From: an uncultured Bacilli bacterium
GTDB taxonomy: Bacteria; Bacillota_I; Bacilli_A; RF39; UBA660
Assembly: GCA_947623825.1 (NCBI GenBank)
Contig: CANQHQ010000012.1
Coordinates: forward strand, 1-34,910
Direction of reading: 5' to 3'
DNA length: 34,910 bases
Made by a program: the position numbers and the translations under genes. Below are positions 114 to 32,079 of this stretch, in pieces. Numbering within the stretch: position 1 is the stretch's first letter; the number at the start of each line of letters is the position of its first letter. The notes under the pieces were generated by a model, which did no database searches, was not told the DNA's origin, and was given only the letters and a program-made list of their open reading frames with translations.

Positions 114-3100
114 GTGAAAAAAGCGTTTCTTTGGATTCATAAAAGAGTTGGAGTTCTTACGATTGGTTTATTGGCTATTTTCATGGTTGGAATAGGACTT
201 TTGCTGAATTCTTATGCCTTAAGCGAACCAATACCCAAGATTTCTTTTTCATCCCAAACGTTAAGTTATGAAGAGAATGATCCGGGAAGTTGGCGGGTTG
301 ACAAGGGTGCGGAATGGATTGGCTTAGGGAAAGCGAGAATTACCTTTCAAGTAGATACGATTTTAAAGACAGAAAATCCGAATACAGATGTCATTCTAGT
401 TCTTGATATATCTGGATCTATGGCAGGAGAAAAGTTAGAGCGAGTGAAGAAAGATTCCATCGATTTATTAACTGCGTTGTTATCAAATAAAAACAATCAG
501 GCAGCATTAATTACGTTTGATACAAACTCTGAACTAGTGTCTGGTTTTACTAATGACACAAATAGTTTAATAGAGGTGATAAGTAGTTTAGAAGCTATAG
601 GAACTACTAATTATTATCAACCGCTTGTCCATGTAGATGAAATTTTGAAAAATTATTCCAAGAAAGAAGATACAGAGTGTGTTGTTTTATTCTTAACGGA
701 TGGATATCCGAATGAGGATATTCCGAATCAAATAGGGGAATATCAATATTTAAAAAGTGAATATCCGTGGTTAAATATCCATGGGGTTCAATATGAAATG
801 GGAGAAGAAATTTTAGAACCTATCAAAGAAGTTAGTGATAACCAGTTTATCGCGGATATGACTACGTTGAATAATGTCTTGTTTGATGCTTCTGTTCTAC
901 CTATTCCTTATGATAAGTTTATCTTAACGGATTGGATTCATAATGAATATTTTGATTTAAAGGAGGTTTCGAATATTCAACCTTCTTTTGGAAAAGTAGA
1001 GTTAGAAAATGATAACGGAGTACCCAAAGTGACATGGGATTTAAGCGGTTTAAAGTCAGGACAAAGTGCCACGTTAACGATAGATATTGATTTAAAAGGA
1101 GATTCTTACACAGGAAGTGAAATTAATCCAACTAACAAGAGTAGTAAAGTGGTTTCTCAAATAGATGGGGATAAAGAAGATGTTACAACAAAGGAAAGTC
1201 CTAGTTTAAAAACACATTATAAAGTGATTTACGATGGAAATGCCCCAAGTGGATGTAGTGTAGGTGAGGTACCTGAAGCAAAAGATTATGCTGTATACGA
1301 AACAGTCGGAAAAAGTGATGCAGTTCCTATTTGTGAAGGTTATCAATTTAAAGGATGGGAAATTGTAACAGAAGAAGTGAAACAACTGAATGGTGACTAT
1401 TTTCAAATGCCTGAGAAAGATGTAACATTACGAGCAGAATGGGGAAAAATGGGATTATCGAAGTCGGTGGAAGGAGAAGTTTATATTCAAAGAGGTCCAG
1501 TTCTGCAAAAAATAGGATCCGGCTATTATGATAAAGAACTTTGGCAATATAAAGATTCTATTACGAAGATAGTCTTTGAAGGGGAACAGACATCAAAAGA
1601 AGGCTCTACAGAGGAACTCACTTGGGATATTTCGGCAGCCAAAGATGGCTCGGTAAGAGGATTACTGGTACCGAATTCCGATGATCCTTCTACCTATACT
1701 GCTTACATTCAAGGATTAGAAGGAAAAGTGATTGCCAATTCGGATAGTTCTTATTTATTTGGTGGCGAGTATTTTTCTTCCTTTTCAAAATTAAAGGTGA
1801 TAGAAGATTTAGAATTATTAGATAAGAGTCAAGTAACCAATATGAGTTCTATGTTTGAATATTGTAAATCCTTAACAAGTTTAGATTTAAGTGACTGGGA
1901 CACAAGGCAAGTAACTGATATGAGTCGTATGTTTTCTGATTGTGAATCCTTAACCAGTTTAGAAGGCTTAAGTAGTTGGAACACTCATCAAGTAACCGAT
2001 ATGTATGGTATGTTTTCTGATTGTAAAGCCTTGAATAGTTTAGAAGGTTTAAGTAAATGGGACACGAGTCAAGTAACCGATATGAGTTCTATGTTTTCAG
2101 GTTGTTGGCTCTTAACCAATTTAGATTTAAGTAGTTGGAACACTGGTCAAGTAACCCGTATGAGTTCTATGTTTCGTAATTGTAAGGTCTTAACCAGCTT
2201 AGATTTAAGTGGCTGGGAAACAAGTAAAGTAACCGATATGGATGATATGTTTTATTGGTGTTTTCACTTAACCAGTGTCGGAGATTTAAGTGGCTGGGAC
2301 ACAAGTCGAGTAAAGGATATGAGTTCTATGTTTGATGAATGTTACGACTTAACCAGTTTAGATTTAAGTGGTTGGGTACCGAGTCAAGTAACCGAGATGG
2401 ATAGTATGTTTTATCATTGTATTGCCTTAACCAATTTAGATTTAAGTGGCTGGGATACAAGTCAAGTAACCAATATGCTGAGTATGTTTGATGGTTGTGA
2501 GGCCCTAATCAGCTTAGATTTAAGTGGCTGGGACACGAGTCGAGTACCGGATATGAGTTATATGTTTCGCGATTGTAACGCCTTAACCAGTCTAGAAGGT
2601 TTAAGTAGTTGGGACACGAGTCAAGTAACCGAGATGGATAGTATGTTTTATGGTTGTAAGGTCTTAACCAGCTTAGATTTAAGTGGCTGGGACACGAGTA
2701 AAGTAACCAATATGGATGGTATGTTTCGTGAATGTAGTTCCTTAACTAGTGTCGGAGATTTAAGTAGATGGGATACCCGTCAAGTAACAGATATGTATTT
2801 TATGTTTGATGATTGTAGTCAGTTAACAGCAACAATTAGTATTCTAAATAATTCAGTGACTAGTTATGGTGGTATGTTTAGAAATGCTGCTACCAAAAAT
2901 AATGCTCAAATTACAGTCAATTATTCTAGTGAATCAGAAGCATTAGTAGAACAAATGATTGCTACAAAAAATAATGCAAATTCAAATGTGATAAAAGCAG
3001 ATAGTCCATATGTGGCACATTCTGTAACGATTCAAGGTAGAAATGACATTATTGCAACTCCATCAGGTGGAATTATGTTTACCCAAATTACACTGACTCC

Positions 3101-3518
3101 AACTCAAGAGAATTATATGGTTACTTCGTTTGACATGAATGGAAGAAAAATAGAAGGTAATACTTTTGCTATGCCGAATGAAGAAGTTGTGATTACGAAT
3201 GTGACCATTTCTGAAGGTGTCCTATGGGAATCTAGTCATAACCCATATAATAATAACCTAGATGAAACATATGAGCATACTTTTGAAGGGGCAGGAAGTT
3301 TGACTGTTACCTTGGAGTATCAAACAGAAAGTGCAAGTTGGGATTATATTTATTTATATGATTCTACTCAAAAGCAGTATGGAGAGTATGGAGGAAAAAC
3401 AAAGACAACAGAAACGATAATTATTCCAGGAGATTACATTAAAATTTTATTTCATACAGATGAAAGTGGTAATGACTATTATGGTTTCAAAGCCACTGTG
3501 ATTCCTAATTATGAATAA
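114..3518 (+). CDS. Secreted VWA / B-repeat / DUF285 (BspA-type leucine-rich) / CUB-like surface protein
   Basis: This is an 1134-aa surface protein, probably an adhesin. The start is GTG at 114, with AGGAAG at 100-105 as the ribosome-binding site. Domains in order: an N-terminal hydrophobic signal/anchor (about residues 12-35); a von Willebrand A domain (about 90-265) with the metal-site motif DISGS at 98-102, a Thr pair near 164 and TDG at 195-197; a linking beta domain; an InlB/Listeria-Bacteroides B-repeat (about 368-445, ending LRAEW); thirteen DUF285 leucine-rich units of about 24-26 residues (about 570-905), each of the form DTSxVTxMxxMFxxCxxLTSLDLSGW; a beta linker; and a C-terminal CUB-like domain with WDYIYLYD. 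No LPxTG or C-terminal membrane segment is visible, so the N-terminal segment may hold it in the membrane. A strong terminator follows at 3592. In this family, DUF285 and VWA domains usually mediate attachment to host or matrix ligands. The ligand here is unknown. Confidence 0.85.
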   Translation: MKKAFLWIHKRVGVLTIGLLAIFMVGIGLLLNSYALSEPIPKISFSSQTLSYEENDPGSWRVDKGAEWIGLGKARITFQVDTILKTENPNTDVILVLDISGSMAGEKLERVKKDSIDLLTALLSNKNNQAALITFDTNSELVSGFTNDTNSLIEVISSLEAIGTTNYYQPLVHVDEILKNYSKKEDTECVVLFLTDGYPNEDIPNQIGEYQYLKSEYPWLNIHGVQYEMGEEILEPIKEVSDNQFIADMTTLNNVLFDASVLPIPYDKFILTDWIHNEYFDLKEVSNIQPSFGKVELENDNGVPKVTWDLSGLKSGQSATLTIDIDLKGDSYTGSEINPTNKSSKVVSQIDGDKEDVTTKESPSLKTHYKVIYDGNAPSGCSVGEVPEAKDYAVYETVGKSDAVPICEGYQFKGWEIVTEEVKQLNGDYFQMPEKDVTLRAEWGKMGLSKSVEGEVYIQRGPVLQKIGSGYYDKELWQYKDSITKIVFEGEQTSKEGSTEELTWDISAAKDGSVRGLLVPNSDDPSTYTAYIQGLEGKVIANSDSSYLFGGEYFSSFSKLKVIEDLELLDKSQVTNMSSMFEYCKSLTSLDLSDWDTRQVTDMSRMFSDCESLTSLEGLSSWNTHQVTDMYGMFSDCKALNSLEGLSKWDTSQVTDMSSMFSGCWLLTNLDLSSWNTGQVTRMSSMFRNCKVLTSLDLSGWETSKVTDMDDMFYWCFHLTSVGDLSGWDTSRVKDMSSMFDECYDLTSLDLSGWVPSQVTEMDSMFYHCIALTNLDLSGWDTSQVTNMLSMFDGCEALISLDLSGWDTSRVPDMSYMFRDCNALTSLEGLSSWDTSQVTEMDSMFYGCKVLTSLDLSGWDTSKVTNMDGMFRECSSLTSVGDLSRWDTRQVTDMYFMFDDCSQLTATISILNNSVTSYGGMFRNAATKNNAQITVNYSSESEALVEQMIATKNNANSNVIKADSPYVAHSVTIQGRNDIIATPSGGIMFTQITLTPTQENYMVTSFDMNGRKIEGNTFAMPNEEVVITNVTISEGVLWESSHNPYNNNLDETYEHTFEGAGSLTVTLEYQTESASWDYIYLYDSTQKQYGEYGGKTKTTETIIIPGDYIKILFHTDESGNDYYGFKATVIPNYE
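1821..2829 (+). repeat. Thirteen tandem DUF285-coding repeats
   Basis: These are in-frame tandem units of about 72-78 bp inside the surface-protein gene. Each carries near-identical blocks such as CAAGTAACCGATATGAG, ATGTTT and TTAGATTTAAGTGGCTGG. Units alternate between the SLDLSGW type and the SLEGLSSW or SVGDLSGW type. The high similarity at DNA level suggests recent expansion or gene conversion. Unit number could change by slippage without breaking the frame. Confidence 0.85.
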
Positions 3519-9915: not shown

Positions 9916-11175
9916 ATGAAATTTAAAACATTAACAGAACAGGAATTTCGTGATTTTTCTTCTTCTTATCCACAAGCCTCGTTCATGCAGACAGTTGAAC
10001 TTGCGCATTTAAAAGAAGATTATTTGAAAAGTAAGGTTCATTATGTTGGCGTAGAGAAGAATAAAAAATTAGTGGCAGCATCGATGATTTTAGAAGACGA
10101 AACGATTTTTCATCAGAAAAAATTTTATGCACCGAGAGGTTTTTTAGTTGATTATCACGATTTTGAATTGCTTCAGTTTTTTACGAAAGAAGTAAAAAAA
10201 TACATTCGTTCTCATCACGGATTTATTTTAACGATTGATCCGAATGTAGTATATCGTGTGCGAAATAGTGATGGAGAAATCATGGATGGAAATCCTCCCG
10301 ATGATTTGTCTATCAATCATTTGAAGCAACTGGGATACCAACACTACGGTTTTAATCTTTATCTTGATTCTTTACAAGCCAGATGGGCTTATCGGATGAC
10401 CCTAGATGAAGATTATGAAACGAAGAAGAGTCGATTTTCTAAAAGTACGAGAAAAAATATTGATTCTTGTATTAAGAAAGGATTGTTGGTAAGAGAAGGT
10501 ACCATCGATGATTTGGAAGTGATGACTGAAATCTTTGATTTGACTTCGAAACGGAAAGATTTTTTTTCTCGTAGTCTTGATTATTATAAAAAGATGTATC
10601 ATCATATGAAAAATCTCATGACGATTTATATTGCTTATTTGGATCCAGAGGTTTATTATCAACATACGAAAACACTTTTAGAAGAAGAGAAAAAGAATTA
10701 TCAAGAAATTATAGAAAAAATGAAAGTAGATCAAGTGGGAAGTAAACTTTTAGCGAAGAAAGAGACAAGTGAGGCTCTATTAAATAAGTATGAAGCAGAA
10801 TTAGAGAAAGCTGAAGCTTTTAAAAAGGAATATCCAAAAGGAAAAGACATTGGTTGTTTGTTGTCTCTTCGTTCTGGACGGGAGTATTTGACTTTATCGA
10901 GTGGTGTTTTGGAAGAATATAAGAGTTTTACTCCGAAATATTTGATGTATGAACATCATATCAAGGAAGCTTATAAAGAAGGATTTCAATATTGTAATTT
11001 TTATGGAATTACGGGAGACTTTCGGAAAGAAAATAAATATTATGGCATTTATGAATTTAAAAAAGGGTTTAATGGGAACGTAATTGAACTAATTGGACAG
11101 TTTGATTTAAAAATTACGAATTTTTATTCTGTTTACAAGATTTTGAAAAAGATTCGTGATACAATAAAGAAGTAG
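9916..11175 (+). CDS. FemABX-family peptidyltransferase (FemX-like), paralogue 1
   Basis: This 419-aa enzyme probably adds amino acids from aminoacyl-tRNA to the lysine side chain of lipid II, building the peptidoglycan cross-bridge. FemABX landmarks are FKTLTEQEFRDF at the start, APRGFLVDY (about 74-82), the R-x-S-K-STRKNID segment before the second acetyltransferase-like domain, and the C-terminal block NFYGITGDF, YEFKKGF and ELIGQFDL. A charged coiled-coil arm (about 248-308, LLEEEKKNYQEIIEKM onward) is inserted in the second domain, as in FemA/FemX. It sits directly after a lipid II flippase gene and before a small membrane protein, with coupled ribosome-binding sites. Which amino acid it adds cannot be read from the sequence. 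Confidence 0.85.
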   Translation: MKFKTLTEQEFRDFSSSYPQASFMQTVELAHLKEDYLKSKVHYVGVEKNKKLVAASMILEDETIFHQKKFYAPRGFLVDYHDFELLQFFTKEVKKYIRSHHGFILTIDPNVVYRVRNSDGEIMDGNPPDDLSINHLKQLGYQHYGFNLYLDSLQARWAYRMTLDEDYETKKSRFSKSTRKNIDSCIKKGLLVREGTIDDLEVMTEIFDLTSKRKDFFSRSLDYYKKMYHHMKNLMTIYIAYLDPEVYYQHTKTLLEEEKKNYQEIIEKMKVDQVGSKLLAKKETSEALLNKYEAELEKAEAFKKEYPKGKDIGCLLSLRSGREYLTLSSGVLEEYKSFTPKYLMYEHHIKEAYKEGFQYCNFYGITGDFRKENKYYGIYEFKKGFNGNVIELIGQFDLKITNFYSVYKILKKIRDTIKK

Positions 11176-11844: not shown

Positions 11845-11868
11845 ATGGGTTGTGAAGGAGCTGTTAGT

Positions 11869-14800
11869 ATGAAAAATGCAACAAAAAAAATGATGACTAT
11901 TTTATTGGTAGCAGTGATGCTATTTCAGGTATTTAGTCCAATTACTGTTTTGGCTATTGAAAATATTCAAGATCAAAATAGACCATTTCAGTTAATAGAT
12001 GATCCGATAGAAGAACAGGAGGAAGAGCCGAAAGCGGTTTCACTGGATGCTTTTTCTTCCAAAGGGGATATTGAAGTCGATTTGGAGTTTGTTCTTCCGT
12101 TAAAAGATCGGGAAGATACGGATATTACCTTAGAAATTTATAATAAGGAAAATCCTCAAAGTGTTGGTAAAATCTCTTATAAAGATATTTTATCTAGCCA
12201 AGATGGAAATTATGAAACGACTCTTTCGTTTGATGAACAAGTGGTAAAAACGAAAGCAACGAGAAGAGATGAGAGAGCACAAATTTTAGGTGGTGTCGAT
12301 TACACAAGAAATGTTGTCTTTCTTAGTTTTCATGTGTATTCTTTGGATTTAGGAACTTATGAACTCACTTTGAATGGAAAATATTTTGTTCCCTTTCATC
12401 AGACGATTACTTTAAATGACTTTTCTAAAAGAGTGAATCTTACGAATGGAACAGGAATGTTTGAATATGGAGATATCAATCTTGATGGAAAAGTAGATTC
12501 TTCTGATAATACAAAAATGTTGGAAGCAATGGAACAAAAAGATACCAATTATGATTTGAATTTAGATGGTGTTGTAGATATTGCGGATTTAAATTATATT
12601 ACCGCAGTAATTACGGGTACCAAGAAAGAAGCAAGTATCGATGATACGAGTGCCATTCTTTCGAGTGAGTCGATTTCTTTAGAAGTAGAAGAAGAAATGA
12701 TTCAGAATGGGAACTTGAGCGATTTATTTACAGAAGATGGAGTTGTTACTTTTCAACAAACAGAGGAAAAGCCAATTCAATTTACGTTAGATTTTGGTAA
12801 AGAAGATCAACAAGAACCGGTGGAAATGCGCGAGATTCGTATTGCGGTAGGGGAAGAAATTCCTCAAAAGATGACGGTAACTGTTGAAACAGAAGAGGGA
12901 GAAAGCATCCAACAAGAAGTTACTTATCATCAATCTCGTCAAGGATATCATAAATTTACCGATGAAGCAGGTGCGGATACTTTTGTCATTGATTTAGGAA
13001 AACAAGTGGCCGTTAAGAAAGTAACCATTGTCATTACAGAGGCTTCTACGAATCGCTTGGCTGATATTGCGAAGGTAGAATTCTTAAATGATGTAAAAGT
13101 AGAATTGAAAGAACCAGAAGGTTTTTATACACCGGATCCAATTCATGTAGATGGGTCAAAGAGTGAGCAGTTGACGGTTTCTTTTGATCCCGTTCCAAAT
13201 GTTACAGGATATGAAATTAAAATTACAGGACCAAAAATTGATACTGTTTTTCAAACGACGTATACTTCTTTTACGATTGAAGATTTAAAGAATTATGAAA
13301 CGTATCGTATTGCGGTTCAATCTACGAACCAAGAATGGCGTAGTGGATGGAGTGAAGAAGTAACTGGAATTCCACAAGCAACAAGAAAACCACCAAAAGT
13401 AGATATGGTAAGAGCCACTGCGGTTATCGCTGGAATTGATTTTCGTTGGAACATAATGGATGATACGACCTCTTATCAATTATATTATCGGGAAGAGGGA
13501 GCAACTTCTTTTGAAATGGTCGATGAAATCAAAACCAACTCTTATTCTCTTAGAGGATTAAAGCCTTCTACTACTTATGAAGCTTATGTGATTGGAGTAA
13601 ATCCTTTAGGAAAAAGTGAAAGTTATTCTCTTGTCTCTGCCAAAACATTAGAAGCAGGGGCTACCATCGTTCCACAGTATAAATTGATTAATAAAGCCAA
13701 TGGATCTGGTAAAACGGATCATATTGAAGATGTCATTTATAGTCAAGGAACTATGGTAGGTGGAAATCAATTTTCTATGGTCGATGATGACTACAATACG
13801 TATTGGCAATCGAATACTTTTTATGTAAATTCTCATAATCCGAGTATGGGATATCCTATCTTTGTATTGGATGATACCTATGAAATGGATGAATTTGTTA
13901 TTACGGTTCCTGATACGTTTACGAATCAATATAAAGTAGGAAAAAATAATGAGAATGATACGGTTATTCGTTACTGGAATACTAGTCCAGGAGAAGCACG
14001 TACGGAACAAAATCGTACTACCGTTCAGGGAGAATTAACTCTTAAGAAAGATGTCAATGGACGTTCTTACTACGTATTAAAACTTTATGATCCAATCGAA
14101 GCCAATGCGCTTCAATTTGGAGTAACAGAGAAAAACAATCGACCATTATCTCAATTTACAGAATTTAAACTTTATCAGTACGATTCTTTGGTAGATGATG
14201 TGGCTGCCTTGTTTACGGATGATTTGCGTCTTGTTCTTGCGGATGGAGTAGGAATGGATGATATTTCAGAATTAAGAACGAGAGCGAATACCATGGATAA
14301 TGGAGAATATTCTCCTTATCGTGAAAGTGTTTTGGCAGACTTAGATTATGCAGAAAAGATTTTAAAAGATGAAGCCATCGATGATGTTATTACATTGAAT
14401 CCTAATATTTCTAATAGTTACAACGGACATTTGAAGTTCGCTATGACTATTAGTGATTATCAACCGTTAGGAATTGTAGCAAAACCAGGAGAGACATTAA
14501 ATGTTTATGTTGGAAGCAAAGGTAGCGTCAATGCAGAGATTGTCTTTACACAATATCATGCAGATGCAGGTCAATGGAATCGGACTTATACGCAAGAAGC
14601 ACTTCATACTGGTTTGAATGTCATTTCTGTTCCAAAAATTGGGGATGAAAAGGAAGAACGTGGTGGTAGTGTTTATATTCGCTACAAATCGAAACCTAGT
14701 ATGACCAATTTGATTCAAGTTCGTGTTAGTGGTGGTACAAAGATTCCAATGGTGGATACTACCCTTCTTACTACAGAACAAGAAAAGAAAGAGGTCATCC

Positions 14801-17097
14801 AAAAATATATTGAAACTTTGACGGACTATAATAGTAAATTAAAACAAGTTTATGCAGATCAACAGATGGTATTTGATCCATATAGTAGTGTGTTAGGTTC
14901 TACAGAAATTGTCACAAAGTATGGACTTTTCTCTGTTTCTAGTGTAGCAGTAGAAAATGCTTTAAATTCTGGTACTTCTTCTTTAGAGGAAAGGGTAGAA
15001 AGACTCTATGAATCGATGGAAGCCTTTGATGAAATGATGGAATTATTCTATCGTCAAAAGGGATTATCTAGTGATACGGAAGTATCGACAGATAAAATGC
15101 CTCAATCTAGAATTAATATTCGTTACATGCAGATGTTTGATGGTGCCTTTATGTATGCAGGAGGATATCATGTTGGTATTGAATATGGTTCCATTGCAGG
15201 ACTTGTACAGGCACATCGCAATCGTGAAGATAGTACTGGATATTTTGGTTGGGGAATCAGTCATGAAGTAGGACATCAGATTAATCAAAAAGATACCGTA
15301 TTCGCAGAGGTAACCAATAATATTTATGCTTTGCTTGCTCAGACGAGTAATGATTCTAATCATTCTCGTTTAGAGGATAGTCATATCTATGAGAAAATTT
15401 ATGATAAAGTGACTTCTCATACTTTGGGAAGAGCCCAAAATGTTTTTGTTCAGTTAGGCATGTATTGGCAATTACATTTGGCTTATGATACAGAAAAAAC
15501 GTTTGATGATACGAATTCTATTTTGGCAAGAGTAAATCAGATTTCTCGGTCTTATAAGAATACAAATAATTATAAGCGGGATGAACTAACGATTCTTTAT
15601 GCCTCGATGGCTGCCCAAAAAGATTTAACCGATTTCTTTGAAGTATGGGGTCTAAAAGCGAGTGATACATTAAAAGAAGAGATTGCAAATCTTGGATATG
15701 AAAAAGAAACACAAGCAATTTACTATTTGAATGATAGTGCTAGAAGATATCGTTTGAGTGGACAGTCTGGACTATCGAATTCTAATATTTTAACGGCTCA
15801 TCTTGGTGAAGTGGATTCTAAGACGAAGCGTGTAACCCTACAATTTGAAGTGAATGCAGAGTCAGAAAAGATTTTGGGTTATGAAATTCTTCGTAATGGA
15901 GTATCGATTGGATTCGTGGAAAATGGAGTTACTTCTTTCACGGATAATGTAGGTACCGAAAATAATCGTGCGTATGTTTATCAGGTTGTTGCGTATGATT
16001 ATTGGTTAAATAAGACGAACCTTGTGACGTTAGATGAAGTAAAGATTTCTCATGATGGTAGCGTTGTGAAAGATGCCTTTACGATTCAATCGAATGTGAA
16101 AGCACAAGGAGAAATCACGGACTGTGAAGATGAAAATTTCGATGAATCACAACTTAGTGTTTACCATTTAATTGATGGAGATCTTGCATCGGGATTTGAA
16201 GGAACAGAAAAAATTAAAACATTGAATCAAACTTCGGATAAACCAAGTCTTTCTGTCGATAATGGAAATGCTTATGTAATCCTTCAACTTAATCATCCTA
16301 TGGCTGTAAGCGGTATCAAATATCGTGCTTTGGTGAAGGATGGAGTTTTGGCTCCGAATACGATTACAAAATATAAGATTTCTGTAAGTTCTACTGGAGA
16401 AGATGGTAGTTGGCTTGTGGCGAGAACTGGAACATTCCAAGTTAGTGCGGATCATCCAGAAGAGACCGTTTACTTTATGGGACAGAATACGACGAGTCAG
16501 TCTCAATTATGGACTTATAAAGATATTGGATATATCAAGATTGAAGCAGATGGAAATCGCAATGGACTTTCTGGTGCGGAAATTGATGTCATTGCGCCTC
16601 CTGGAGATAATGTAGAAATTCCTGATACCAATGCCATTGGTGTGTTAGAAGAAGATTATTGTTATCTTTCCAATGGTTGTCCAAAAGACAAATTAGATGA
16701 AAACCAAGAGGTAGAAGGAATCATCAAGAAAGGATCTGTGATTATTCAAGGTTCTTATCGTGGTAATCCATCATTCAATCAGGTTCTTATCGGAGATAGT
16801 TCTGATGATCAAAAGAATTATAGTGGATATTTCCTTATTTTCGCAGAATTAGAGGAAGATAAATCCGTTTATGAAGTTGCGAATGGTACTTGGTTATATG
16901 TCATGACGCAGGAACAGTACGAATCTATGATTCAAAGTTCTGATAGTATTCGTGCATACCTTTATCGAGTAGATGATGCCATTTCTCTAACAGGACAAAG
17001 ATTGACGAGTACCTCTAAATCTATTACGAATTTGGTTCCATATGAAAGTTTGGGAAAGGTCAAGATTCAATCTTCCCTTTCTAGTGAAGGAGAATAG
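11869..17097 (+). CDS. Secreted multidomain M60 (enhancin/mucinase-like) metalloprotease with a dockerin
   Basis: This protein has 1742 residues from ATG 11869 (AAGGAG 8 bases upstream). An in-frame ATG at 11845 lies before the binding site and at the likely transcript start. Order: signal peptide (1 to about 32); an Ig-like region; a type I dockerin (about 200-250) with two calcium loops, DINLDGKVDSSD from residue 202 and DLNLDGVVDIAD from 229; a discoidin-like region; two fibronectin III-like domains (about 420-600); a second F5/8C-like region (about 610-760); the M60 domain with HEVGH at 1132-1136 and E1147 as the likely third zinc ligand; then Ig/FN3-like and F5/8C-like modules (about 1310-1560) and a unique tail. 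M60 proteases cleave mucin-type glycoproteins. There is no sorting signal, so retention at the cell may rely on the dockerin. Three bases separate it from the next gene. Confidence 0.88.
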   Translation: MKNATKKMMTILLVAVMLFQVFSPITVLAIENIQDQNRPFQLIDDPIEEQEEEPKAVSLDAFSSKGDIEVDLEFVLPLKDREDTDITLEIYNKENPQSVGKISYKDILSSQDGNYETTLSFDEQVVKTKATRRDERAQILGGVDYTRNVVFLSFHVYSLDLGTYELTLNGKYFVPFHQTITLNDFSKRVNLTNGTGMFEYGDINLDGKVDSSDNTKMLEAMEQKDTNYDLNLDGVVDIADLNYITAVITGTKKEASIDDTSAILSSESISLEVEEEMIQNGNLSDLFTEDGVVTFQQTEEKPIQFTLDFGKEDQQEPVEMREIRIAVGEEIPQKMTVTVETEEGESIQQEVTYHQSRQGYHKFTDEAGADTFVIDLGKQVAVKKVTIVITEASTNRLADIAKVEFLNDVKVELKEPEGFYTPDPIHVDGSKSEQLTVSFDPVPNVTGYEIKITGPKIDTVFQTTYTSFTIEDLKNYETYRIAVQSTNQEWRSGWSEEVTGIPQATRKPPKVDMVRATAVIAGIDFRWNIMDDTTSYQLYYREEGATSFEMVDEIKTNSYSLRGLKPSTTYEAYVIGVNPLGKSESYSLVSAKTLEAGATIVPQYKLINKANGSGKTDHIEDVIYSQGTMVGGNQFSMVDDDYNTYWQSNTFYVNSHNPSMGYPIFVLDDTYEMDEFVITVPDTFTNQYKVGKNNENDTVIRYWNTSPGEARTEQNRTTVQGELTLKKDVNGRSYYVLKLYDPIEANALQFGVTEKNNRPLSQFTEFKLYQYDSLVDDVAALFTDDLRLVLADGVGMDDISELRTRANTMDNGEYSPYRESVLADLDYAEKILKDEAIDDVITLNPNISNSYNGHLKFAMTISDYQPLGIVAKPGETLNVYVGSKGSVNAEIVFTQYHADAGQWNRTYTQEALHTGLNVISVPKIGDEKEERGGSVYIRYKSKPSMTNLIQVRVSGGTKIPMVDTTLLTTEQEKKEVIQKYIETLTDYNSKLKQVYADQQMVFDPYSSVLGSTEIVTKYGLFSVSSVAVENALNSGTSSLEERVERLYESMEAFDEMMELFYRQKGLSSDTEVSTDKMPQSRINIRYMQMFDGAFMYAGGYHVGIEYGSIAGLVQAHRNREDSTGYFGWGISHEVGHQINQKDTVFAEVTNNIYALLAQTSNDSNHSRLEDSHIYEKIYDKVTSHTLGRAQNVFVQLGMYWQLHLAYDTEKTFDDTNSILARVNQISRSYKNTNNYKRDELTILYASMAAQKDLTDFFEVWGLKASDTLKEEIANLGYEKETQAIYYLNDSARRYRLSGQSGLSNSNILTAHLGEVDSKTKRVTLQFEVNAESEKILGYEILRNGVSIGFVENGVTSFTDNVGTENNRAYVYQVVAYDYWLNKTNLVTLDEVKISHDGSVVKDAFTIQSNVKAQGEITDCEDENFDESQLSVYHLIDGDLASGFEGTEKIKTLNQTSDKPSLSVDNGNAYVILQLNHPMAVSGIKYRALVKDGVLAPNTITKYKISVSSTGEDGSWLVARTGTFQVSADHPEETVYFMGQNTTSQSQLWTYKDIGYIKIEADGNRNGLSGAEIDVIAPPGDNVEIPDTNAIGVLEEDYCYLSNGCPKDKLDENQEVEGIIKKGSVIIQGSYRGNPSFNQVLIGDSSDDQKNYSGYFLIFAELEEDKSVYEVANGTWLYVMTQEQYESMIQSSDSIRAYLYRVDDAISLTGQRLTSTSKSITNLVPYESLGKVKIQSSLSSEGE

Positions 17098-18060: not shown

Positions 18061-18099
18061 AAAAAAATAAAAGTGTTTATGTTAACACTTTTATTTTTT
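18061..18099. terminator. Bidirectional terminator between convergent operons
   Basis: This is a perfect 14-base inverted repeat: AAAATAAAAGTGTT (18064-18077) and AACACTTTTATTTT (18084-18097), with loop TATGTT. A and T runs flank it on both sides. Its right arm contains the stop codon (18091-18093) of the minus-strand FemX gene. Confidence 0.9.
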
Positions 18100-19404
18100 G
18101 ATATTTTGTATGTGATTTTTTACGTTTTTTAAAGTTCTGTAAGAGAAAAAAGCAAATTTATATAAATAGTAGAATGGCTTATTTACGATGAGATCATATT
18201 CTCCTAATAGTTCTACTACTTGTCCTCCAAAGTCTCTTTTGAAAGAATAGAGACCAAAGAGGGGATTCTTTTCGTCAAAGTTTCCGGTAATTCCATAAAA
18301 GTTGTATCGGTCATAATTCTGTTCTATGGCATATTTCATTCCTTCCCAATGAACCGTGTAGGCAGATTGAAATTCCATAAATTTTTGGTATGAACCACCT
18401 ACGAGTGATAATACTTCCTTTCCATAGATGAGAAATAAAATGCCTCCTAGCGGGATAACTTCTCCATTTTCTTCTTTGATCTTTTTGATTTTCTCTTTCT
18501 TTTTTTGAAGTCGTTCTATGGTGGCTTGATCTTCTTGTTGTTTTGCTTTTAATTTTTTTTCATTCATCTTGGCAGGATTTTCTCTGTATTTTTCTTCTCT
18601 TTGTTGTTTTTCTTTTTCAATAGTTTCTATTTCTTTATCGATGGATTCTATCAATTCTTTGGCATGTAATTCCGCAATTAGTATTTTCAAAATCTTGTGT
18701 TCTTTTCCCAAGTGCTTCATCATATCTTGATAATATTCTAATGGGCGGTCAATAAAATCTCTTCGATCACCAGTGTGTTGCATGATGTCTTTGAATAAAG
18801 GAAGTTCCTTTTCGTCAATTTCTCTTACGCGGATACAATCCCGTTCATTTTTTCTAATAATTTGTCTTGTTTTCGGATCCATCTCTTTCATTACATCTTC
18901 GATGGTTCGATTCTTGGTATTCGTTGTGAAAATCCATCTTGGTTGAAGGGTATCCTGCATTAAATTAAAACCAAAATGACGGTATCCTAGCTTTAGTAAA
19001 TTTTCATGGGCTTTTTTGTTATTTTGTCCTCCCTCTACGATGTTTCCTAGTTTATCTCTTTCTTGATAAGAAACGTAAGGGTCAATTTTCACAAAGATAC
19101 CTTTTTCTTTTTTTACGTACTTTTTGATTTCTTCTGTAAAACTTTTTAACAGTTTCTCATCGTTGTAATCGATGAGAAATCCTCTAGGGGAATAGAACAT
19201 ATTTCTTTTGATTGGGGTCATTTTAGAAAGAAGTAGACATCCTGCGATGACTTTTCCATTTTCTTCTTTATATCCTAAAAGATGGGATTTCCAACCATTT
19301 TCTTCTTTTAATTTTCCCCATTCGACGGTTTGATGAAAACTGATTTGCGGATGATGATCTGCGAAATTTTTGAATTCTTTTTCAGATAATGTGACTAATT
19401 TCAT
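18091..19404 (-). CDS. FemABX-family peptidyltransferase, paralogue 2
   Basis: This 437-aa FemX-like enzyme is predicted to extend the peptidoglycan peptide bridge using aminoacyl-tRNA. Landmarks are KLVTLSEKEFKNFADHHPQ at the start, YSPRGFLIDY, DPKTRQIIRKNERDC, and the C-terminal NFYGITGNF, FKRDFGGQVVELLGEYDLI. The coiled-coil arm (about 250-325, including IDKEIETIEKEKQQREEKY) is longer than usual and very rich in Lys and Glu. The start ATG at 19404 has AGAGGTGAAG upstream, which contains the TGA stop of the preceding paralogue, so the two are translationally coupled. Similar in pattern to the plus-strand gene at 9916 but diverged. Confidence 0.85.
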   Translation of the reverse strand: MKLVTLSEKEFKNFADHHPQISFHQTVEWGKLKEENGWKSHLLGYKEENGKVIAGCLLLSKMTPIKRNMFYSPRGFLIDYNDEKLLKSFTEEIKKYVKKEKGIFVKIDPYVSYQERDKLGNIVEGGQNNKKAHENLLKLGYRHFGFNLMQDTLQPRWIFTTNTKNRTIEDVMKEMDPKTRQIIRKNERDCIRVREIDEKELPLFKDIMQHTGDRRDFIDRPLEYYQDMMKHLGKEHKILKILIAELHAKELIESIDKEIETIEKEKQQREEKYRENPAKMNEKKLKAKQQEDQATIERLQKKKEKIKKIKEENGEVIPLGGILFLIYGKEVLSLVGGSYQKFMEFQSAYTVHWEGMKYAIEQNYDRYNFYGITGNFDEKNPLFGLYSFKRDFGGQVVELLGEYDLIVNKPFYYLYKFAFFSYRTLKNVKNHIQNIKK

Positions 19405-26926: not shown

Positions 26927-26960
26927 AAAACATCTCCTTTATTTATTTTATTATATGTTA

Positions 26961-26966
26961 TATAAT
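26961..26966 (+). promoter_or_regulatory. -10 element for trmB
   Basis: A perfect TATAAT 15 bases before the chosen trmB start. It lies within what would be the coding sequence if the upstream ATG at 26955 were used. Confidence 0.55.
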
Positions 26967-26981
26967 AAAGTCGGTGATGGA

Positions 26982-27635
26982 ATGAGACTTAGAAATGTAA
27001 AAAATAAACAACAAATTATGGATGCTTCTTCTTATCTCGTTAAGAATCCAAAAGATTATTGTGGAAAGTGGAATACTTTTTTTGAAAAGAATCAACCGAT
27101 TCATGTAGAAATTGGAACAGGAAAAGGGCAATTTATTCTTGGTATGGCTCTTGCGCATCCGGAATGGAATTTTATTGGAATTGAAAAGTATGATAGTGTG
27201 ATTGCACGGGCACTAGAAAAAATTCCTGAAGGGGTTCCGAATTTATGTATGATTCGAATGAATGCTTTAGAAATCGATGAAGTCTTTTCTCGGGAAGTGG
27301 AAACGATTTATTTGAATTTTTCTGATCCTTGGCCGAAGAAAAGACAAGCCAATCGTCGATTGACGAGTCCTATCTTTTTAAATAAATATGATTCGATTTT
27401 TGTTCAAGACGAAACCATCATTCAAAAGACAGATAATCCTCATTTATTTGAGTATTCTTTGGTCTCTCTTACGCAACATGGGTATGAGTTATTAGAGGTT
27501 TCTCTCGATTTACATCAATCTTCTATCGAAGGAAATGTCATGAGTGAATACGAAGAAAAATTTTCGAAGAAAGGAAAACCAATTTTTTATGTTCATGCGA
27601 AGAAAAATGTATCGAATCTAGTAAAAAAAGATTAA
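26982..27635 (+). CDS. trmB: tRNA (guanine-N7-)-methyltransferase
   Basis: A 217-aa SAM-dependent enzyme that methylates G46 in the tRNA variable loop. Visible marks are the SAM loop VEIGTGKGQF, the acidic strand end IGIEKYDSV and the family signature NFSDPWPKKRQANRRL. The start at 26982 is chosen because CGGTGATGGA precedes it. The upstream in-frame ATG at 26955 would place the TATAAT promoter element inside the gene. Length fits the family. Confidence 0.93.
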   Translation: MRLRNVKNKQQIMDASSYLVKNPKDYCGKWNTFFEKNQPIHVEIGTGKGQFILGMALAHPEWNFIGIEKYDSVIARALEKIPEGVPNLCMIRMNALEIDEVFSREVETIYLNFSDPWPKKRQANRRLTSPIFLNKYDSIFVQDETIIQKTDNPHLFEYSLVSLTQHGYELLEVSLDLHQSSIEGNVMSEYEEKFSKKGKPIFYVHAKKNVSNLVKKD

Positions 27636-27688: not shown

Positions 27689-28351
27689 ATGAAGAAATTA
27701 GCGATATTATTTTCTCTGACATTGCTTTTGAGTGGATGTTCACTCGTTCAAGTACAACAACAGACCTATCAAGAAATGGTACATGATTTGTTGGTAGAGG
27801 ATATCCATTTAAAAAATGTTTCTTTAGAGGGGTATTCGTATTATCTACCGAAAGGGGTCTTATTAAAGAGAAATCAAGGATTGAATTCGATTCTTTATTA
27901 TAAGCATAAAAAGATGTATTTGTATGTCGATGTTTTGTCTTATTATCATAAAGTGGAAAGTGAATACGAAGAAGGAACAGAGAATTACTTTTCTATGAAG
28001 ATCGATCAAAACGGAAAACAAGGTTATTTGGAAATTACAGAAATTTCTACAAAATATTTTGTAGAGTTCATGTATCATTATTCTAAGATAGAGGCGTATG
28101 TAGAAAAGGAAGATTTAAAAGAAACCGTGACAAAGATGGCTTATATCTTGAATAGTGTTCAGTATCAGGATGCTGTGTTGAATACTTTGGTTGGGGATAA
28201 GGCCTTAGATTATAATGAAGAAAATTTCAATATCTTTAAACCAAAAAGAGAAGATGGAAAGAGCTTTTTGGATTACCAAGAAGAAGAAATGGATCGATGG
28301 TTAGACGGAATAGATGAAGATAAAGTAGATATTGATGGTGACTTAGAGTAA
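27689..28351 (+). CDS. Predicted lipoprotein
   Basis: A 220-aa protein with a lipoprotein signal peptide: KKLAILFSLTLLLSGC, lipobox LSGC with C17 as the predicted lipidated residue. The mature part is rich in Tyr, Lys and Glu, with an acidic C-terminal end (DEDKVDIDGDLE). No family recognised. It has its own promoter-like TATAAT at 27664-27669 and the site AGGTGGG. Fourteen bases separate it from the acidic-protein gene, so they are probably co-transcribed. Confidence 0.75.
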   Translation: MKKLAILFSLTLLLSGCSLVQVQQQTYQEMVHDLLVEDIHLKNVSLEGYSYYLPKGVLLKRNQGLNSILYYKHKKMYLYVDVLSYYHKVESEYEEGTENYFSMKIDQNGKQGYLEITEISTKYFVEFMYHYSKIEAYVEKEDLKETVTKMAYILNSVQYQDAVLNTLVGDKALDYNEENFNIFKPKREDGKSFLDYQEEEMDRWLDGIDEDKVDIDGDLE

Positions 28352-28365
28352 GAAAGAGGTGCTTT

Positions 28366-29328
28366 ATGGGATTATTAGAGAAATTGAAAAATACCTTTTT
28401 TGAAGAAGAAGAGTATGTAGATTTAGAAGAAGAGGAACAAAGTAAAAAGAATAAAGCCAAGCGAAAAGAGAAAGAAAAAGAGAAAGAACCACCTGTGGCT
28501 AAGAAAGTAGAACCTTCTCCTTTGGTTGTGGAACCAGTGAAAGAGGAACCGGAAGAAGAAGTTGTGTCAGAAAAGAAGGAACCGGAGATTGTGAGTCAGA
28601 GAGACAATGAGTTGTTGAAACCGGATACGGGAATTCCTTATTTTGAAGATGAAGATTTTATTGATGTATCGGAAGAGACAGTAGTAGAGGAACCGAAGAA
28701 AGAAGAACGAAAGGTTTATGGGGGAGATCCTTCTTTAATCTACGACGGAGTAGGGATGGATACGCCAAAAGATGGGAAACCGTATTCGAATGTTGGCGCT
28801 GGAAAAACAGGATTTAAACCAACTCCCATTATTTCTCCTATTTATGGAATTCTAGATAAGAATTATCGAAAAGAAGAAGTAGTCGATAAAAAAGATAAAC
28901 CTAGTAGTTATGTTTCACGAAAAAATGTAGATTTAGATTTCGTTCGAAACAAGGCTTTCGGTACGTTAGAAGATGATATCGCGAATAGTGACGTAGAGGA
29001 ATCTCCTAAGACACCAACGTATGTTCCTGAAAACGAAGAGTATGAGGATAGTTTACTTTATGATATGACCGATACAGGAGAAGCGCCTTCGGTTGAGAAA
29101 GTCACGATTGCGGATGCCGAGGAATATTTTGAAGATTTAGGGTTAGAATATAATGTAGACTATAAAGATGAACGATATGAGAAAGCAACAGGACGCAGAA
29201 GTAGAATTACAAAAGAGGAAGTATCGGATGAACCACCAAAGAGTGAAAAGAAGACAGGAAAGAAAGAAAACAACTTAGAAAACAATCTCTTTGATTTGGT
29301 TGATTCCGTTTATGAAGAAAGGGAGTAG
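28366..29328 (+). CDS. Acidic, largely disordered protein with a conserved-looking TPIISPIYG motif
   Basis: A 320-aa cytoplasmic protein without signal or membrane segment. Almost all of it is charged and low in hydrophobic residues (long Glu/Lys stretches at about 17-85 and 265-305). Ordered-looking islands are the N-terminal MGLLEKLKNTFF, the central segment GFKPTPIISPIYGILDKNY (about 148-166), FVRNKAFGTLEDDI and the C-terminal NNLFDLVDSVYEE. Such short islands in a disordered chain usually bind partner proteins. It lies between a lipoprotein and the DUF948/YtxH pair, an envelope-related setting. I recall similar TPIISPIYG segments in related uncultured Bacillota, but no function is known to me. 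Confidence 0.7.
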   Translation: MGLLEKLKNTFFEEEEYVDLEEEEQSKKNKAKRKEKEKEKEPPVAKKVEPSPLVVEPVKEEPEEEVVSEKKEPEIVSQRDNELLKPDTGIPYFEDEDFIDVSEETVVEEPKKEERKVYGGDPSLIYDGVGMDTPKDGKPYSNVGAGKTGFKPTPIISPIYGILDKNYRKEEVVDKKDKPSSYVSRKNVDLDFVRNKAFGTLEDDIANSDVEESPKTPTYVPENEEYEDSLLYDMTDTGEAPSVEKVTIADAEEYFEDLGLEYNVDYKDERYEKATGRRSRITKEEVSDEPPKSEKKTGKKENNLENNLFDLVDSVYEERE

Positions 29329-29333
29329 AAAGA

Positions 29334-29633
29334 ATGGATGCAATGATGGAAATGTTTCCGATTTTGATTGGTGTACTTGTCATCTTGTTATTAATCGTAT
29401 TGATTATTCTTGTCGTTAAGTTGATTGGAACGGTCGATAAGGCAAATCATATTTTGGATGATATCGAAGATAAGACGCGTTCGCTCAATGGACTATTTCA
29501 TGTGATTGATAGTGTTACCGATACGTTGTCTGTTTTCAGTGATAGTATTGTCAGTACCATCACATCAATCGTTGGAAAAGTGATTCCAAAAAGAAAAAAG
29601 AAAGAAAAGAAAGAGGAGAGAGATTATGAGTAA
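29334..29633 (+). CDS. DUF948-like small membrane protein (YtxG-like)
   Basis: A 99-aa protein with one N-terminal membrane segment (about 8-31), a helical region (TVDKANHILDDIEDKTRSLN) and a second helical region to a Lys-rich tail. This is the plan of DUF948 proteins, which often lie next to ytxH, as here. The end overlaps the start of the YtxH gene by 8 bases, so translation is coupled. Likely tail- or membrane-anchored with the helix in the cytoplasm. Function unknown; linked to general stress in Bacillus relatives. Confidence 0.7.
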   Translation: MDAMMEMFPILIGVLVILLLIVLIILVVKLIGTVDKANHILDDIEDKTRSLNGLFHVIDSVTDTLSVFSDSIVSTITSIVGKVIPKRKKKEKKEERDYE

Positions 29634-30063
29634 AGAAGAAAAGAAAAGCAGTGGAGCAGGAAAATTTTTGTTAGGGGCTGCCGTAGGGGCAGGATTAGGA
29701 ATCTTGTTTGCGCCAAAGGCTGGTAGTGAAACGAGAAGAGATTTAAAGAAAAAAATGGATGAGCTTATGAAGAAGGCAAAGGAAATCGATATCGAGGAAG
29801 TAAAAGAACAAATCGAGGATAAAATCGATGAAATTAAAGAAGAACTTCGTGATTTAGATCGAGAAAAAGCCTTACAAATTGCCAAAGAAAAAGGACAAGA
29901 TTTAAAAGAAAAATGTGAAGAATTGGTCGATTTGGCAGTCAAGAAAGGTTCTCCTGTATTAGAGAAGGCCGCTAACGAAGTACGGGAAAAGACGATTGAA
30001 GCAGTAAAAGAAGTGTTAGAACGTTTAGAAGAGAAAGATAAAAAGGCGAAAAAGGCAAAATAA
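29626..30063 (+). CDS. YtxH-domain protein
   Basis: A 145-aa protein with the YtxH signature GKFLLGAAVGAGLGILFAPKAG (about 12-33), where a glycine-rich hydrophobic segment is followed by SETRRDLKKK. A long, charged helix fills the rest. YtxH proteins are small membrane-associated stress proteins of Gram-positive bacteria. Its stop (TAA, 30061-30063) abuts the promoter of the T-box operon, with no separate terminator visible. Confidence 0.85.
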   Translation: MSKEEKKSSGAGKFLLGAAVGAGLGILFAPKAGSETRRDLKKKMDELMKKAKEIDIEEVKEQIEDKIDEIKEELRDLDREKALQIAKEKGQDLKEKCEELVDLAVKKGSPVLEKAANEVREKTIEAVKEVLERLEEKDKKAKKAK

Positions 30064-30322: not shown

Positions 30323-30850
30323 GTGGAGCGTATACAGAATTTAAGATTTTCAAGTCCAATGCAACTGTTGGATCAATTAAAATTACAAAGAGTGACTGAT
30401 ACGGTGACTTTGGCGAAGAAGTTTGGCTTTTCAGTGGAATTGTTTTGTTCTTCCCATCCGTTATTGAATTCTTATCGGGATATGGGAACGCTTCGGGCAG
30501 GTTTGATTTCGAAACAAAGAAAAATTGGTGTAAATCGAACCATTTGTATTTCCGAAGATTGTGAATTATCTACGAAACGATTTTTTGTTGTTTATTTACT
30601 CGCGAATTACGAATTGTATTCGAAACCGAGAGAAGACTATGCTTGTGTGCACTTAGATGAAGATTGTTTCGATCCACGAGCGTATCGGTATGCCGTTGAT
30701 TTGTTGGTACCCGACGAGATTTATTCTTATCGTTCTATTACACCCGAACTTCTTCTTTCTTTAGCGAAAGAGTATCAGGTTTCTAGTCGATTGATTCTAC
30801 ATAAATTAAATAATAGAGAAAAAGTAAAAAAATTTGAGGTGATAAAATGA
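30323..30850 (+). CDS. Degenerate ImmA/IrrE-like protein without the zinc site
   Basis: A 175-aa protein from GTG 30323 (GGGGGG 5 bases upstream). It aligns by eye with ImmA/IrrE metallopeptidases: IGVNRTICISED, then KRFFVVYLLANYELY where the family has RFTLAHELGHYLLH, then RYAVDLLVP for the usual NxFAAxLLMP, and LAKEYQVSSRLILHKL for LAxxYxVSxxxxxxRL. The HExxH motif is replaced by YLLAN (91-95), so zinc and protease activity are probably lost. It sits between the T-box and tyrS and overlaps tyrS by 4 bases (ATGA), so it is made under tyrosine-starvation control. A regulatory or ligand-binding role is possible, but none is shown. Confidence 0.75.
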   Translation: MERIQNLRFSSPMQLLDQLKLQRVTDTVTLAKKFGFSVELFCSSHPLLNSYRDMGTLRAGLISKQRKIGVNRTICISEDCELSTKRFFVVYLLANYELYSKPREDYACVHLDEDCFDPRAYRYAVDLLVPDEIYSYRSITPELLLSLAKEYQVSSRLILHKLNNREKVKKFEVIK

Positions 30851-32079
30851 CTTTATATGAAGAATTAGAATGGAGAGGACTTATTAAAGATGTTTCTAGT
30901 CCGGAATTAAAAAATAAAATTGATCATGAGAAGATTTCTTTTTATTGGGGAACGGATCCTACAGCGGAGAGCCTTCATTTAGGACATTATTCTTCTTTGG
31001 TAACGGCGAAACGTTTGGCGAAGGCAGGACATCATGCGATTTTATTGGTAGGAGGCGCTACCGGCTTAATTGGGGATCCTAGACCGACCGCGGAACGAGA
31101 AATTGTTTCGAAAGAGACGATTGAACGAAATTTAGAGGGAATTCGGGCGCAAGTCGATCGATTATTTGAGGGGCAAGCGGAAATTGTAAACAATTACGAT
31201 TGGACGAAGAATTTTAGTTTTCTAGATTTTCTAAGAGATATTGGAAAATACATCAATGTCAGTTATATGTTGAATAAAGATATCATTCGTCGTAGATTAG
31301 ATTCTGGTATTACTTATGCCGAATTCTCATATACATTAATTCAGGGAAACGATTTTTTAGAATTGTACCGTACGAAAAACTGCGTGTTGCAAGTCGAAGG
31401 GTCGGATCAATGGGGAAATATTACGACGGGAATTGAACTCATTAAAAAGATTCTTGGAAAAGAAGCTTATGGATTCACGATGCCTTTGATTTTAGACCGC
31501 TATGGAAATAAATTTGGTAAAAGTGAAGGAAATGCTTTGTGGTTAGATAAAGAAAAGACCTCCCCTTACGAGTTATATCAGTACTTGATTAATACCGATG
31601 ACGAGATGGTCATTTCTTACTTAAAAGTGTTTACGTTCTTATCTGTGGAGGAGATCCAACGGTTGGAAGTTTCCAATAAGGAACATCCTGAATTACGGGA
31701 GGCTCAACAGGCTTTAGCGAGAGAAATTATCACCGATATTCATGGAGAAGAAGAATATCTTCATGCGTTAGAATTAAGTCAGGTTCTTTTTAGTGGAGAT
31801 GTGAAAAATCTAACGGCGAAAGAGTTGGAAACGGTTTTTAAGGGAGTACCTAATTTTTCTTTGGAAAATGACATAAATATTCTTGATTTATTAGTAAATA
31901 ATGGTATAGTTACAAGTAAGAGAGAAGCACGTGAACTAATTTCTAGTAACAGTATTACATTGAATGGAACCCTCGTATCTTCCTTTGATTTCATGGTTAC
32001 TAGAGAACAAGCCATCGAAGGAAAATATGTGATTGTTCGTCGTGGAAAGAAAAAGTATTACTTAGGAAGTTATTGTTAA
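30847..32079 (+). CDS. tyrS: Tyrosyl-tRNA synthetase
   Basis: A 410-aa class I aminoacyl-tRNA synthetase charging tRNA-Tyr. HLGH (44-47) is the HIGH motif and KFGKS (222-226) the KMSKS loop. The tyrosine-binding region YAEFSYTLIQGNDFLELY and GSDQWGNI are typical, and an S4 RNA-binding domain occupies the C-terminus (about 345-408, ILDLLVNNGIVTSKREARELI). Length and layout fit TyrS of Bacillota. It starts with GAGGTGAT 4 bases before the ATG, overlaps the ImmA-like gene by 4 bases, and is controlled by the tyrosine T-box at 30102-30320. Confidence 0.97.
   Translation: MTLYEELEWRGLIKDVSSPELKNKIDHEKISFYWGTDPTAESLHLGHYSSLVTAKRLAKAGHHAILLVGGATGLIGDPRPTAEREIVSKETIERNLEGIRAQVDRLFEGQAEIVNNYDWTKNFSFLDFLRDIGKYINVSYMLNKDIIRRRLDSGITYAEFSYTLIQGNDFLELYRTKNCVLQVEGSDQWGNITTGIELIKKILGKEAYGFTMPLILDRYGNKFGKSEGNALWLDKEKTSPYELYQYLINTDDEMVISYLKVFTFLSVEEIQRLEVSNKEHPELREAQQALAREIITDIHGEEEYLHALELSQVLFSGDVKNLTAKELETVFKGVPNFSLENDINILDLLVNNGIVTSKREARELISSNSITLNGTLVSSFDFMVTREQAIEGKYVIVRRGKKKYYLGSYC

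Follow-up and report, generated by a model that had tools for sequence, protein, structure and literature searches.

The window analysed here is a stretch of 34,910 nucleotides from an uncultured Bacilli bacterium, and the gene under study lies at 28366..29328 on its forward (+) strand. It encodes an acidic, disordered protein of 320 aa (E 18%, K 12.5%, net charge -35), hereafter protein A, which we propose to be a motor-less form of the DNA translocase SftA. No Pfam or NCBIfam family matched protein A at E values up to 1. The sequence has no long hydrophobic stretch, and AlphaFold2 modelling with 36 homologues predicted a mostly disordered chain (mean pLDDT 53.9, pTM 0.17) without a folded domain, in which helices are confined to residues 4-12, 122-125, 190-198, 201-208, 248-258 and 308-317. 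All neighbouring genes discussed here are on the same (+) strand. Upstream are trmB (26955..27635; TIGR00091, 2.2e-49), a conserved neighbour that serves as upstream anchor, and, between trmB and A, the conserved gene of a putative lipoprotein (27689..28351; LPAM_1 signal, weak and below the cut-off). Downstream follow a conserved gene for a small DUF948-like (YtxG-like) membrane protein (29334..29633; PF06103, 0.003, weak and below the cut-off), a YtxH family gene (29626..30063; PF12732, 3.4e-20) and, as downstream anchor, tyrS (30847..32079; TIGR00234, 9.3e-105). Elsewhere the window encodes a surface-type protein of 1134 aa that has a VWA domain and five stretches of DUF285 (114-3518), and a 1750-aa protein with Peptidase_M60 (enhancin-like) and fibronectin type III domains (11845-17097), which we take to be of the mucin-degrading type. 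Two FemAB family genes (9916-11175 and 18091-19404) near a MurJ/polysaccharide flippase-like gene suggest peptidoglycan cross-bridge synthesis.

The initial annotation had described a block of about 19 well-formed residues within a charged, disordered chain with islands at both ends, and the model confidence and charge given above, together with residue frequencies in a 36-row alignment, bear this out. The best-conserved internal block of protein A is FKPTPIISPIYGILDKNY, and residues 149-167 read GFKPTPIISPIYGILDKNY. The mean majority-residue frequency was 0.85 in the motif block (150-171), 0.90 in the C-terminal island (308-317) and 0.68 in the N-terminal island (1-20), as compared to 0.33 for the 222 positions that belong to none of the six islands. 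The putative docking core, FKPTPIISPIYG (28813..28848, +; residues 150-161), was delimited by the alignment and by motif-only profile searches; it is followed by a family-specific extension, ILDKNYRKEE (28849..28878, +), which is defined by the alignment and not found in other motif-bearing proteins. The N-terminal island MGLLEKLKNTFFEEEEYVDL (28366..28425, +) combines a short AlphaFold2 helix (4-12) with an acidic patch and resembles the N-termini of SepF and SftA. The second island, TGIPYFEDEDFI (28627..28662, +), was defined by alignment and corresponds in place to 'FRFPLIPD' of SftA. Beyond the motif are LDFVRNKAFG (28933..28962, +; helix 190-198), in which R194 and A197 are invariant among the 36 rows, KVTIADAEEYFEDLGLEYNVDYKD (29098..29169, +; helix 248-258), which is missing in some members, and the C-terminal LFDLVDSVYE (29287..29316, +; helix 308-317). 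At family level the six islands read MGLLDKxKNxFFEEE, F-x-FP-x-x-FDD-x-DF, FKPSPIISP[IV]YGILDKNYKKED, D-x-D-x-VR-x-KA[YF]G, VTxxDAEEYFxDLGLEYNxDY and LFDLIDSMYE, from the N- to the C-terminus. F.FP precedes the motif in 14 of the 36 sequences, which are related to each other, vs. 0.9% of shuffles; the window's copy is without it.

Protein A is encoded once in its own genome (1.48 Mb, 61 contigs). In single-sequence searches, 51 of the 58 genomes in its own family (E<=1e-3) and 132 of the 146 in its order (E<=1) had a match. In the following, genome families are labelled f1, f2 etc. (the window's genome belongs to f1), genomes G and loci L. A class sample of 395 genomes includes 54 from f1, and the 36-row profile recovered protein A in 52 of these, i.e. 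in all except G036 and G043. Two relatives are named and carry the labels Bacilli MAG and Erysipelotrichaceae MAG. Searches of viral contigs and plasmids gave no match to protein A, and PDB chains none to the protein or its motif. Conservation of the motif in homologues, on which the initial annotation had made its proposal depend, was seen throughout, as all 54 loci first collected by whole-protein searches (the window's own included) carry it; 53 fit the loose pattern and the remaining one reads FKATPIISPVYG. With so charged a composition the block might be taken for a chance island, and the protein for an acidic low-complexity chain without a specific role. We consider this scarcely credible and rejected it on the conservation of the block, the motif being near-invariant at all 54 loci. 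Typically there is one copy per genome, the gene order is fixed, and the same motif recurs at significant E-values in other proteins.

A search for the motif elsewhere had also been suggested, and it showed that several otherwise unrelated proteins have the same short motif in common. One of them, protein B, was first reached via weak matches of the protein A profile. A motif profile, A2 (24 columns, 19 typed rows), searched over the 395 genomes, recovered, from outside its rows, protein B of the window's own genome (E 2.6e-10) and f14 translocases of the SftA type (E 6e-5). From the matches that we read, five architectures can be distinguished: A and B in f1, C in f19, D in f13, and E, which comprises soluble translocases of the FtsK type that have FVSPIFG in roughly the first 60 residues. 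Protein B of the own genome (G000:C27:9042-9971; L123, L157) is acidic, anchored by a TM segment and carries FKSSPIISPVYG. The alignment of B proteins shows, in this order, a TM segment on the N-terminal side, an acidic chain that includes EQEENAIIS, FKSSPIISPVYGIE and a C-terminal DEEIRKTNEFLxxLKELQKxL. The own-genome protein B gene lies between those of an RsmE-type RNA methyltransferase (PF04452) and a DUF6020 protein. We regard it as a second candidate division protein of this genome. Thirty protein B loci were fetched, and the motif was present in 19 of the 28 readable sequences and absent from nine, mostly shorter ones, which is how a module would behave. Proteins C and D both belong to short, acidic families. 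Protein C has a short N-terminal hydrophobic segment and two motif copies (e.g. FTPVISPIFG and TVISPMYG), while protein D has two copies and a C-terminal FKLDFKKxDSLIDEIDDNMSLDELMNLYEKKF. Of 295 phylum genomes searched with a broader profile, A3 (22 rows), 111 had a match at E<=0.3, many of these being chance matches in tiny frames. Two further profile matches, a QueE-like radical protein (L140) and RecG (L211), were discarded as false on reading.

SftA (YtpS) is the soluble, septum-associated FtsK-like DNA translocase of Bacillales. According to the available parts of two reports, it is recruited by the Z-ring (PMC5357621), and this recruitment is supported by SepF and FtsA (PMC11790237). Protein A and SftA both have the motif FxPTxxPSPxYG, an N-terminal M-x-W-x-K followed by an acidic stretch, an FRFP island before the motif (at family level) and no TM segment, and DUF948 and YtxH genes are found in the neighbourhood of both. 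We propose FxPTxx[PI]SP[IV]YG in the N-terminal region as a characteristic of SftA, and protein A has it. We took Bacillales SftA from records deposited as plasmids; it had no match in viral contigs. The three islands of protein A are ordered as in these proteins. Anoxybacillus SftA carries FRPTEVPSPVYG and its tail runs MNWLKRLIRYFFQEE ... GKFRFPLIPDD ... RPFRPTEVPSPVYGYK, the Listeria tail runs MGWFKDFFFGDMDEE ... GEFRFPLIPDK ... RPFTATDVPSPVYAFN with PSPVYA where PSPVYG is expected, and Rossellomorea SftA, whose gene is at a different locus, has APFSAREIPSPTHGFL. An hhalign comparison of protein A profile A1 with the N-terminal regions of these three SftA proteins gave E 1.4e-4 (probability 53%), and the 21 aligned columns lie around the motif. 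Elsewhere protein A and SftA resemble each other loosely and over short stretches. PF01580 (FtsK/SpoIIIE ATPase) matches Bacillales SftA at 1e-74 and has no match in protein A, nor was the FtsK gamma domain (PF09397) found there, and protein A has extra islands (VRxKAYG, DAEEYF and LFDLIDSMYE) unseen in SftA. Because it has neither ATPase nor gamma domain, we keep protein A apart from the SftA class, but suggest that it may work like the SftA tail.

Among FtsK proteins the motif follows the soluble type. Eight families gave 26 readable genomes (G188 included), and in 22 of these a soluble SftA-type FtsK with an intact [IVA]SPxxG near the N-terminus was found, namely in f10 (6/6), f12 (4/4), f14 (5/5), f21 (3/3), f3 (2/2) and f5 (2/2), and decayed forms (FTSPSG, FVSTYYG, FISPSG, FITPAG) in f16 (2/2) and f22 (2/2). 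In f8 the FtsK of G175 reads LSPMRG at this place, and in the soluble FtsK of f4 (G171, G230) the motif is absent. Membrane-type FtsK did not have the pattern in any of seven cases (the own genome and six others), and that of f7, B. velezensis, Cytobacillus and Latilactobacillus is without the motif; an SPDLG in the membrane region of B. velezensis FtsK is unrelated to it. The own-genome FtsK was considered as a motif carrier and ruled out on reading its sequence.

The position of the gene points in the same direction as the islands. In f1 the order trmB-lipoprotein-A-DUF948-YtxH is nearly constant within contig reach over 72 loci (some genomes counted twice), with DUF948 unmatched in two, YtxH in one and the lipoprotein in one; tyrS is within range in 18 of the 72. 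The DUF948 (YtxG) and YtxH proteins are constant neighbours of protein A, but unlike it they are membrane proteins without the motif. In Anoxybacillus (NZ_CP015439, L301) the order is trx-DUF1444-ytpR-SftA-one gene-murC-aminopeptidase-DUF948-YtxH-ytxJ, and the neighbourhood of Listeria SftA matches it (trx-DUF1444-YtpR-SftA-..-murC-..-DUF948-YtxH). The Anoxybacillus record is a 258-kb 'plasmid' with a chromosome-type block (sftA, murC, ytxGHJ), inside which an iscB gene adjoins the thioredoxin gene. In f19, motor-less protein C is found in the order trmB-trx-C-murC-DUF948-YtxH-LacI-tyrS (trmB or trx being unseen in some contigs), and in f13 motor-less protein D in the order trmB-trx-D-ACPS, where murC does not adjoin D. 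In f1 neither trx nor murC adjoins A, and trmB upstream and DUF948-YtxH downstream are present. Family f11 has both states of the translocase itself. In G178 an SftA of 803 aa with its motor and the motif VSPITG is placed in the order trmB-2 genes-trx-SftA-murC-small ORF-YtxH-like gene. In G219 (L223 8454-10133) the order trmB-trx-SftA-murC-YtxH contains a ruined SftA of 560 aa, in which both Walker motifs (A and B) and the alpha region are gone, whereas FKAVEFISPISG, with an intact ISPISG motif, and part of the gamma domain are retained. Among 20 trmB stretches, an SftA-like gene next to trmB was seen only in G178; trmB was not placed in the f4 stretch.

Taken together, our results indicate that protein A is probably a motor-less SftA at the sftA locus, in which a divisome-docking tail was kept without the pump. 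Descent from SftA is likely, short of proof, because the homology rests on short islands and on the locus. An independent disordered division adaptor could instead have gained SPIYG by convergence or segment exchange, since protein B, with an unrelated TM segment and C-terminus, has the same 12-residue core in module-like fashion, and only about 21 columns of protein A align with SftA tails. The sharing of the SftA locus in several families, the ruined-motor intermediate in f11 and the common order of the three islands speak against such an origin, which we judge unlikely.

A count of FtsK domains in 79 genomes (E<=1e-20) is in line with protein A as a tail without a pump. Most f10, f12, f14 and f21 genomes have one FtsK, which is the motif-bearing soluble form; exceptions to the count are G337 with none and G379 with a second, partial match. 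In f11, G178 has two. The f1, f13 and f19 genomes have one FtsK of 700-800 aa, some of them also with EssC-like proteins of 1200-1570 aa, and a second, SftA-type motor was not found in them by this count. The FtsK N-termini that we read in these three families (the own genome, G031 and G310) are membrane-type.

The initial annotation had proposed a phylogenetic profile against division genes. Over 79 genomes, SepF was matched in 70 and FtsA in 61. In 27 genomes of f3, f5, f10, f12, f14, f16, f21 and f22, full-length FtsA was not found; some had no match, and in the others it was partial and fell on an ORF the size of MreB or DnaK. SepF is present in 26 of these 27, the exception being G337, which is also without FtsK at the cut-off used. 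Six of the eight families clearly retain the motif, and the 22 of 26 FtsK-bearing genomes with an intact motif belong to these eight. On the other side, no motif protein was found in f2, f4 (2/3 genomes) and f6, all of which have SepF. In f10, f12, f14 and f21, FtsA and membrane-type FtsK have seemingly been lost, and the cells would divide by means of one soluble FtsK and a SepF that has diverged.

These distributions bear on the partner of the motif, for which SepF is the best candidate, with FtsZ next. SepF suits them better than FtsA, since the eight families above are without full-length FtsA, six of them clearly with the motif, and all but one of their 27 genomes have SepF; FtsA is thus not a general reader of the motif. 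The support of SftA recruitment by both SepF and FtsA, as stated in the available part of PMC11790237, speaks for FtsA, and against it stand the 27 genomes above, which make FtsA a most improbable partner. The genomes without SepF are those of f15 (3/3), f7 (2/2) and f18 (1/1), as well as G230, G337 and G066, and a convincing motif protein was not found in any of them save G066, a MAG with protein A in which SepF is unmatched, possibly through a gap in the MAG. Direct docking on FtsZ, either on its globular domain or its C-terminal tail, would agree with recruitment of SftA by the Z-ring, as described in the part of PMC5357621 available, and the FtsZ gene lies beside FtsA in the own genome. 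The joint lack of SepF and a convincing motif protein in f15, f7, f18, G230 and G337 argues otherwise, and docking on FtsZ rather than SepF appears somewhat unlikely to us. Mycoplasma-type genomes mostly keep FtsZ. The own genome encodes SepF as a separate gene (G000:C1:681-893), which in L225 (C1:143-1031) is followed by a gene whose sequence suggests a DivIVA-like coiled-coil protein. SepF, the membrane anchor of the Z-ring, shares with protein A an N-terminal helix plus acidic patch, and positions 1-39, 1-44 and 3-50 of profile A1 match SepF N-termini of other families (E 2.2e-4, 3.0e-4 and 0.004). Unlike SepF, protein A has no SepF core domain (PF04472). The hydrophobic moment of its N-terminal helix was no higher than in shuffles.

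We suggest the following mechanism for a motor-less SftA. Protein A would retain the tail features of SftA, i.e. a short membrane-attaching N-terminal segment, the second small island and FxPTxxxSPIYG, and would have lost the FtsK ATPase and gamma domains, with the islands VRxKAYG, DAEEYF and LFDLIDSMYE in their place. The N-terminal segment may touch the membrane at the Z-ring, which would place the protein at midcell, SPIYG may dock on an early division protein, SepF or else FtsZ, and the other islands, above all LFDLIDSMYE, may hold further partners. Protein A would then be a septal scaffold, as the SftA tail must be before the motor works. The idea of a scaffold with docking motifs, perhaps for cell division, was already part of the initial annotation; it gains from the recurrence of the motif in unrelated proteins of the same genomes and in SftA, placed at the Z-ring by the available parts of PMC5357621 and PMC11790237, and the likely origin at the sftA locus and the breadth of the motif lay beyond its view. 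The EzrA QNR motif is a comparable case; according to the part of PMC12288466 available, this short conserved motif in a division protein of Firmicutes docks on FtsA, which belongs to the early division proteins. It differs from SPIYG in sequence and in the protein that carries it, and many of the families with SPIYG lack FtsA, the partner of QNR.

A broader reading, which we put forward tentatively as quite possible if short of probable, is that SPIYG is a Z-ring address tag across a whole phylum of bacteria and in Bacillales that is read by SepF and recruits SftA, the dead-motor pump, the motor-less tails A, C and D and the membrane anchor B, several lineages having dropped the pump and kept the tail. 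A literature search for the motif strings gave no paper on an SPIYG-type motif in a division context, as far as titles and abstract openings show. Recruitment of the SftA tail to the divisome is already known; what seems new is a motor-less form that stands by itself and the motif as a tag common to several proteins. A 12-residue motif on SftA, on motor-less relatives and on an unrelated membrane protein gives a handle on the partly known recruitment of SftA to the Z-ring, and it points to further candidate division proteins in uncultured Bacillota. If the tag reading is true, the SftA tail serves division independently of the pumping of DNA. Evolution having kept this tail where the motor was lost also suggests that it may have a role of its own in division.
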